Shown here: positions 5-56,574 of the stretch, piece after piece
Layout of the letters: each line of letters starts with the position of its first letter
Position numbering within the stretch: position 1 is the first letter of the stretch
From: Pseudomonadota bacterium
GTDB taxonomy: Bacteria; Pseudomonadota; Gammaproteobacteria; Burkholderiales; Casimicrobiaceae
NCBI GenBank assembly: GCA_018241785.1
Contig: JAFEDF010000252.1
Coordinates: 1 to 64,000, forward strand
Length of the DNA: 64,000 nucleotides
Direction: 5' to 3'
The notes under the pieces: generated by a model
Seen by the model: only the letters and a program-made list of their open reading frames with translations
What the model was told of the DNA's origin: nothing
Database searches by the model: none
Made by a program: the position numbers and the translations under genes

Positions 5-293
5 TAGGGAAGCTCCGCGAAACGGGAACGGACCCTGTTTCAGCGATCGGCCGCGCTGGGGAGCGCAGCGCTGGGAAGCGGTGGGGATGCTCCGGCGCGC
101 GAGTTCGACCGCGAAGGCCGGGGGAGCGGGGTACCGTGACGGGCCCAGACACCGGCCGCGTTCCGCAGCCGAACTCGCGCGTCACGGTACCCCGCTCCCC
201 CGGCCTCCGCGGTCGGTGTAGAGCGCGCCGGAGCATCCCCGCCGCTTCCGATCGCTGAAACAGGGTCCGTTCCCATTTCGCGGAGCTTCCCTA
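5..293. repeat. Long palindromic element, copy 1
   Basis: A 289-bp near-palindrome. The outer arms 5-50 and 248-293 are complementary at 45 of 46 positions, starting TAGGGAAGCTC and ending with its complement. Inner arms follow, interrupted by about 25 extra bases on the left (near 51-75), then a central loop of about 40 nt that itself contains a GC-rich hairpin. The right-hand CTA (291-293) is the TAG stop codon of hemY on the minus strand. The left-hand TAG (5-7) may end an unseen plus-strand gene. There is no T-run, so it is not a classical intrinsic terminator. Related copies lie at 56430-56574 and 63105-63403. Confidence 0.93.
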
Positions 294-35973: not shown

Positions 35974-36049
<76 letters not shown>

Positions 36050-55214: not shown

Positions 55215-55330
55215 CCGCGCCAAAGGTCTCGTCGAACACGCGCGATGCCGTGCCGGCTGCGCCATGGTCGAACCGCGACCAAGTGTGTTGACGCAGCCCC
55301 GCCGGAACCCGGCGGTGACTACTCCCCGAT
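55215..55330 (-). promoter_or_regulatory. yybP-ykoY manganese riboswitch
   Basis: On the minus strand the leader begins with GGGGAGTAG (55319-55327), the conserved 5' box, and ends with GACGAGACCTTTGGC (55219-55233), the conserved 3' box. About 85 nt of paired GC-rich sequence lies between. This is the four-way-junction yybP-ykoY motif that senses Mn2+. The start codon of the GDT1-type exporter is about 75 nt downstream. A TATACT -10 lies just upstream at 55342-55347. Regulation could be at translation, since no T-run terminator is seen. Confidence 0.88.
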
Positions 55331-55341
55331 GAGCGGGCCGG

Positions 55342-55347: not shown

Positions 55348-55385
55348 ACGCAGTGTCCCGCCGCTCGCGGTAACGGAGAATGCAC

Positions 55386-56477
55386 ATGCCCTACCCGACG
55401 ATCAAGGTTGCCGCGGCGCACGCGGCACCGGTCTATCTCGACCGCGCGGCGACCGTGCAGAAGGCGCTGTCGATCATCGACGAGGCTGCCCGGAACGGCG
55501 CCCAGCTCGTCGTGTTCCCCGAGTCGTTCATTCCCGGTTTTCCGCTCTGGGCGGCGCTGTGGGCGCCGATCGACAACCACGACTGGTTCAAGCGGATGGT
55601 TGCGAGCAGCATCCTCGTCGACGGACCCGAGATGGCCGAGCTTCGCGCCTCGTCGCGGCGCAACGGCGTATTCGTCTCGATCGGCATCAGCGAGTCGACG
55701 CGCGCGAGCGTGGGCTGCATCTGGAACAGCAACGTGCTGATCGGCGACGACGGCGCGGTGCTCAACCACCACCGCAAGCTCGTGCCGACGTTCTTCGAGA
55801 AGATGGTGTGGGCGGCGGGCGACGGCCACGGCCTCAGGGTCAGCGATACGCGAATCGGACGGATCGGCGCGCTCATCTGCGGCGAGAACACCAATCCCCT
55901 CGCGCGCTTCGCCCTCGCCGCGCAGGGTGAGCAGGTGCACATCTCGACCTGGCCCGCGGTGTGGCCGACGCGCAGGCCCGGCTCGCAGACGGGCCGGAAC
56001 TTCGACAACCTCGCAGCGAACCGGCTGCGCGCCGGCGCGCACTGCATCGAGGCGAAGGTGTTCGGCATCGTCAGCGCGGGCTTCATCGATCGCGCGATGC
56101 AGGACGCGCTCCTCGACGGGGCCGACGGCGAGGCCGCAACCGTGCTGCGGACCACGCCGCGCGCCGCCACCGAGTTCCTCGACCCGACCGGTGCTTCGAT
56201 CGGCGAGACGCTGCGCGGTGACGAAGGCATTGCCTACGCGACATTCGACCTCGACCTTTGCGTCGAGCCCAAGCAGTTCCACGACATCGCGGGCTACTAC
56301 AACCGCTTCGACGTCTTTCGCGTCGAGGTCGATCGCCGCCGGCTGTCCCCGGCGAAGTTCGTCGACGACGAGCCGGTCAGCGGCGCGCGCGACGATCGGA
56401 AGCGCTGCGAATCGAACGAGAGCCGCGGCGGCGGGGATGCCGCGGCGCGCTCTGCACCGACCGCGGGGGCCGAGTGA
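55386..56477 (+). CDS. Nitrilase / carbon-nitrogen hydrolase
   Basis: A 363-aa nitrilase-superfamily enzyme from ATG 55386, which has CGGAGA about 7 nt upstream; ATG 55380 is less well spaced. The catalytic triad is Glu in LVVFPESFIPGFP, Lys in LNHHRKLVPTFFEK and Cys in ALICGENTNPLARF. HISTWPAVWP follows, as in true nitrilases (branch 1). The last 15 or so residues (rich in Gly, Ala and Pro) are encoded by the palindrome core that begins near 56430, so the native C-terminus has probably been replaced. Nitrile substrate unknown. Confidence 0.9.
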   Translation: MPYPTIKVAAAHAAPVYLDRAATVQKALSIIDEAARNGAQLVVFPESFIPGFPLWAALWAPIDNHDWFKRMVASSILVDGPEMAELRASSRRNGVFVSIGISESTRASVGCIWNSNVLIGDDGAVLNHHRKLVPTFFEKMVWAAGDGHGLRVSDTRIGRIGALICGENTNPLARFALAAQGEQVHISTWPAVWPTRRPGSQTGRNFDNLAANRLRAGAHCIEAKVFGIVSAGFIDRAMQDALLDGADGEAATVLRTTPRAATEFLDPTGASIGETLRGDEGIAYATFDLDLCVEPKQFHDIAGYYNRFDVFRVEVDRRRLSPAKFVDDEPVSGARDDRKRCESNESRGGGDAAARSAPTAGAE

Positions 56478-56574
56478 GCGGGGCACGGTGACGCGCGAGT
56501 TCGGCTGCGGAACGCAGCCGGTGTTTGAGCCCGTCACCGTACCCCGCTTCCTCGGCCTTCGCGGTCGAACTCGC
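56430..56574. repeat. Long palindromic element, copy 2 (core only)
   Basis: A 145-bp match to the inner arms and loop of copies 1 and 3, in the orientation of copy 3. It includes the stem around 56475-56545 and the nested hairpin GGCTGCG-GAA-CGCAGCC. The outer 46-bp arms with terminal TAG/CTA are missing or unrecognisable. It encodes the nitrilase tail and stop (TGA 56475-56477) on the left and abuts a histone deacetylase gene remnant on the right. The intact genes on both sides (nitrilase and beta-CASP RNase) converge. Confidence 0.88.

Follow-up and report, generated by a model that had tools for sequence, protein, structure and literature searches.

The repeated palindrome described here is probably an IS5-type MITE, whose arms are most likely kept matched by template switching during replication and whose surviving copies usually lie at the 3′ ends of genes, where they keep the stop codon. 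The covariation between its arms, which the first-pass annotation had reported, is real; the identity of the element at stop codons and the inflation of an R-scape signal by fold-back copies had been overlooked there. The analysis is based on one draft genome and few relatives, with palindromes assembled from short reads.

The Element and Its Copies in the Window

The window, that is, the whole stretch of 64,000 nucleotides analysed, is contig C169 of the draft genome G000, a Burkholderiales-related MAG (3.49 Mb, 262 contigs), and the copies in it and their parts are as follows.

5–293, core orientation +: copy 1, complete element; the terminal TAG/CTA is part of the target duplication
5–50, +: left outer arm of copy 1, 46 nt
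95–226, +: inner core palindrome of copy 1, with arms of ~50 bp and the asymmetric internal loops GAGTTCG and GGTGTAGAG
248–293, −: right outer arm of copy 1; 291–293 is the TAG stop of a minus-strand gene reading into the element
56428–56574, −: copy 2, a core remnant without outer arms, inside which the carbon-nitrogen hydrolase ORF 55380–56477 (+) terminates
63104–63107, +: left CTAG target duplication of copy 3; TAG at 63105–63107 is the stop of ORF 61704–63107 (+)
63105–63403, core orientation −: copy 3, complete element
63401–63404, −: right CTAG target duplication of copy 3, which doubles as the stop of ORF 63401–63886 (−)

The element is about 284 bp long (mostly 264–302 bp), non-coding and nearly all palindromic, with two arms of about 80 bp each in addition to the inner arms, and its hairpin is extremely stable. 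Its ends are the inverted terminal repeats GGAAGCTCTGC. About 70 places in the genome contain it, and the copy number is estimated at roughly 50–70, since two contig ends may each show half of one copy. That is to say, it is short, non-coding, multi-copy and bounded by terminal inverted repeats, as is characteristic of a MITE.

The remnant at 56428–56574 is presumably what the first-pass annotation called copy 2. Its left part supplies the 3′ end of the hydrolase gene, and on its 3′ side lies the 3′ end of a putative deacetylase-like gene (judged by eye, without Pfam confirmation), which suggests a deletion at the element. The window also contains a manganese (yybP-ykoY) riboswitch at 55234–55341 (−) and a tRNA gene at 35974–36046 (+), both of them Rfam matches.

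Covariation between the Arms

In the outer arm, copies 1 and 3 differ at positions 12, 32 and 34, with the partner arm changed to match in every case: when the right arm is reverse complemented, both arms of copy 1 carry C12, T32 and T34, and both arms of copy 3 carry T, G and C. Copy 1 has a single mismatch, at position 19 (C/T), and copy 3 has none. Sequence comparison agrees with the first-pass annotation on the variable positions, their matching and the numbers of mismatches. The C at position 12 of copy 1 also occurs in other copies, so this difference is in part inherited and did not arise anew in both arms.

Of the 27 complete copies, eight (L002, L003, L012, L014, L019, L021, L022 and L025) are flanked by sequences that are reverse complementary to each other; all eight lie at contig ends, and they were left out of the covariation counts. 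Such inverted flanks at the contig ends of this genome, for example L002 1–50 and L012 1–88, can imitate palindromes. They are an artefact of fold-back, in the assembly or in the library; the outermost arms of the eight may be artefactual and are not independent, and a naive R-scape run would inflate the signal because of them.

In the 18 copies without fold-back flanks, paired and unpaired variants at arm positions 4–40 are equally frequent, with 18 of each. The 16 copies without such flanks whose arms are equal in length hold 17 paired variants against 2.3 expected under arm independence, the independent events being fewer than these counts because some paired variants are common to several copies (T35G in four). 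The same 16 copies have 16 arm mismatches, whereas 20,000 shuffles in which the right arms were re-dealt among copies gave a mean of 44.9 and a minimum of 28. When the count was extended to the full hairpin and to ten further, divergent copies, 2919 cells paired, whereas shuffling gave a mean of 2721 (SD 8). The first-pass annotation had held that many unpaired differences in other copies would speak against its pattern, and this came half true, with as many unpaired as paired differences. With dozens of copies, the genome offers a natural tally of copied and uncopied arm mutations, at about 1:1.

How the Arms Stay Matched

For the matching changes, the first-pass annotation had offered selection for pairing (RNA or cruciform) and arm-to-arm conversion. 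The covariation is best explained by the latter, here in the form of template switching within the element, because the arms share deletions, double changes are clustered and mostly transversions, inner segments are inverted and G-U mismatches are not in excess over A-C. We infer the following course of copying: during replication, the nascent strand would fold back so that one arm serves as template for its partner, and a mutation in a single arm would then be erased or transferred to the other arm, where it would look like a compensatory substitution.

First of all, an identical 10-bp deletion is present in both arms of L007, and an identical 1-bp deletion in both arms of L011. Clustered rather than isolated changes had been proposed as a sign of conversion, and paired changes do lie 2–8 nt apart in five copies, which fits copying; a two-base cluster confined to one arm of L005 is apparently a copying intermediate. 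Moreover, the orientation of the core relative to the outer arms is reversed between copies 1 and 3, and the outer loop is flipped in L075 and L151. Polymerase template switching has been described as homogenising arms and inverting spacers (PMC8604942, PMC8794818); a caveat for the present copies is that the assembly of palindromes from short reads could account for some of the arm identity or of the inner inversions, even inside contigs.

Selection for the pairing of a transcribed RNA hairpin, such as a bidirectional terminator or 3′-end stabiliser between convergent genes, would suit the many copies that sit between convergent genes, the extreme stability of the hairpin, the almost invariant internal-loop side AACTCGCGCG and the core mismatches, among which G-U outnumber A-C (29 to 17, P = 0.10); weak pairing selection may act in the core. 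In the outer arms, however, single mismatches are G-U in 28 cases and A-C in 27 (P = 1.0), with no sign of the preference for G-U intermediates by which a structured RNA is recognised, and double changes are mainly transversions (64 vs 48). RNA-level selection in the outer arms is not supported. Entire deletions common to both arms, genes that read away from the element at some copies and Rfam matches that all fall below the gathering score, all of them to long-hairpin miRNA models, also make such an RNA unlikely. A pure convergent-gene terminator was rejected as well, since at many copies the element's edge is the stop of exactly one gene, and at some a gene is directed away from the element.

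RecA-dependent gene conversion or inversion, either between the inverted arms or between copies, could also even out the arms, and has a small chance of being the cause. It agrees with the many near-identical copies, with the differing relative orientations of core and outer arms and with the indels common to both arms, but the arms are more alike within a copy than across copies, which exchange between copies would not favour, and by an argument from the literature short tracts would suit template switching better. That arm identity is nothing but an assembly or library fold-back artefact is very improbable. The eight contig-end copies and the position of copy 1, which begins 4 bp from the contig start and so has 4 bp of left context, point that way; against it, strong covariation persists in copies with unrelated flanks, copy 3 is internal to the contig with flanks unrelated to each other, and the position-19 mismatch of copy 1 and a 15-bp insertion in one of its arms speak against plain fold-back. 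Perfect compensatory changes in long palindromes therefore need not signal a functional RNA, as copying in replication or fold-back in assembly can mimic them.

The cores of all copies, L075 and L151 included, have two asymmetric internal loops in which the motifs GAGTTCG and CTCTACACC face each other; the two motifs are sometimes swapped, and they are kept in two species. These heterologous loops remain while the other arm sequence of the hairpin is homogenised. Non-consensus bases make up 0.4% of the inner 3′ loop AACTCGCGCG and about 6.5% of the arm next to it; the loop's figure is somewhat biased, the alignment having been anchored on part of it. The element could conceivably be a domesticated bidirectional 3′-end barrier, which carries the stop codon together with a self-repairing hairpin and whose conserved loops bind a host or transposase protein; we regard this as quite unlikely, and if it were true, the survival of the element would hinge on its niche at gene ends.

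Stop Codons and the Scarcity of CTAG

The stop codon of a neighbouring gene is often part of the element itself. Among the 85 ends with enough flank to be tested, a coding-like frame reads into the element at 43 and stops exactly at its first three bases (offset 0); at 18 the stop lies at most 60 bases before the element, at 12 a gene reads away, and the others are unclear or of another kind, all genes being called from their reading frame and from GC content by codon position, not from annotation. An offset-0 stop was also found at three of four elements tested in the congener G019. Of five further MITEs that share the terminal repeat, L193, L210, L215 and L218 in G019 and L211 in G306, four have a gene stop exactly at the edge.

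The high share of ends that supply the stop codon is probably due to the scarcity of CTAG and its frequent location at TAG stops. The 64-kb window contains 8 CTAG against 177 expected, two of the 8 being at copy 3, and three of the six outside copy 3 are TAG stops; where CTAG does occur in this GC-rich genome, it often consists of the final C of a codon and the TAG stop behind it. At the vacant locus of G017 that is orthologous to L018, the gene concerned likewise ends at the junction, and in at least one congener (G012) the stop at the L108 locus lies within about one codon of the junction. Insertions within genes would be removed, and the survivors would be those at gene 3′ ends that retain the stop codon. 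Target preference together with the loss of intragenic insertions is the simplest account of the stop-codon positions. This suggests that base composition may steer a transposon: with CTAG depleted, insertions are largely restricted to stop codons, a position in which they are almost harmless. The open-access literature searched yielded no earlier account that ties CTAG-targeting transposons to stop codons.

Target Site and Search for a Parent

CTAG stands at 45 of 87 element ends, and the other ends include TTAG, TTAA and CTAA, which fits a 4-bp YTAR target duplication. Several copies have CTAG or TTAA on both sides, and a copy in G017, a related Burkholderiales MAG (JAICXH01) with the same core, is flanked on both sides by the 4-bp TTAA. 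The vacant G017 locus has TTAA at the junction, so that target-site duplication is joined by an empty site, as expected of a MITE, this being the one clear case. In pattern scans, the terminal repeat gave no match in the reference genomes, and the core motif matched only the G017 MAG, with none in viral contigs.

The same terminal repeat bounds elements of 99–252 bp in G019, which belongs to the same genus, and in G391, G306, G264 and G272, which belong to other families of the order; the reversed control pattern has zero matches there. Two of those in other genomes, L197 and L205 (99 and 148 bp), are surrounded by direct TTAG repeats and so fit the 4-bp YTAR duplication.

We infer that the element was moved by an IS5-type transposase. 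The target duplication of the IS5 family is YTAR (PMC10359306), and MITEPsy1, with the terminal repeat GGAAGGTCTGAAAAAGCC and the target CTAG or YTAA, probably derives from ISPsy2 of this family (PMC3189936). The terminal repeat of the element resembles that of MITEPsy1 and also GGAAGGTCTGAAG, which lies beside a PF01609 gene in G405.

A resident parent transposase is not strictly required of a MITE. None was matched in the genome by the PF01609 and PF05598 profiles, and the draft MAG may lack such a gene; nor was an autonomous IS with the terminal repeat GGAAGCTCTGC found. Several candidate parents were rejected: IS5 elements in seven genomes that carry the same terminal repeat or are related gave no terminal match, and IS5-like DUF772 elements in congeners have different ends, some of them likewise lying at CTAG. 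At L159 1369–2538, an IS630-like element with PF13358, about 1.17 kb long, is inserted in CTAG; its ends, those of the one clear IS630 of the genome, are TGTCGTGAGTTA and not those of the element, and an IS630 parent or IS630-type MITE was rejected accordingly. A REP/BIME origin with RAYT was rejected too, the genome having no match to the Y1 transposase (PF01797).

Comparison with Known Systems

In form, the element resembles MITEPsy1/ISPsy2 of Pseudomonas syringae (PMC3189936): the repeat begins with GGAAG, a TCTG block is common to both, the 4-bp duplication is CTAG or YTAA, coding capacity is absent and the parent is thought to be of the IS5 family. However, MITEPsy1 is 100 nt long with 18-nt repeats, whereas the present element has about 284 nt and a core with asymmetric loops, and no parent was found for it. 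With the IS5 insertion sequences themselves it shares the 4-bp YTAR duplication (PMC10359306), and L219, an IS with PF01609 in G306, likewise has CTAG on both sides; unlike them, it has no transposase gene, and its terminal repeat is identical to that of no full IS found here. Correia-type and IS630-type MITEs also use TA-containing targets, and the IS630 of this genome also lies in CTAG, but its repeat is TGTCGTGAGTTA, and the TTAG and TTAA cases of the element suit a 4-bp duplication better than TA.

As for the arms, the homogenisation of quasipalindromes by template switching (PMC8604942, PMC8794818) shows the same features, namely homogenised arms, multi-base clustered compensatory changes and inverted spacers. 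The cases described there are short repeats in yeast genes and RNA stems, whereas the present arms measure about 80 bp and belong to a dispersed transposon family.
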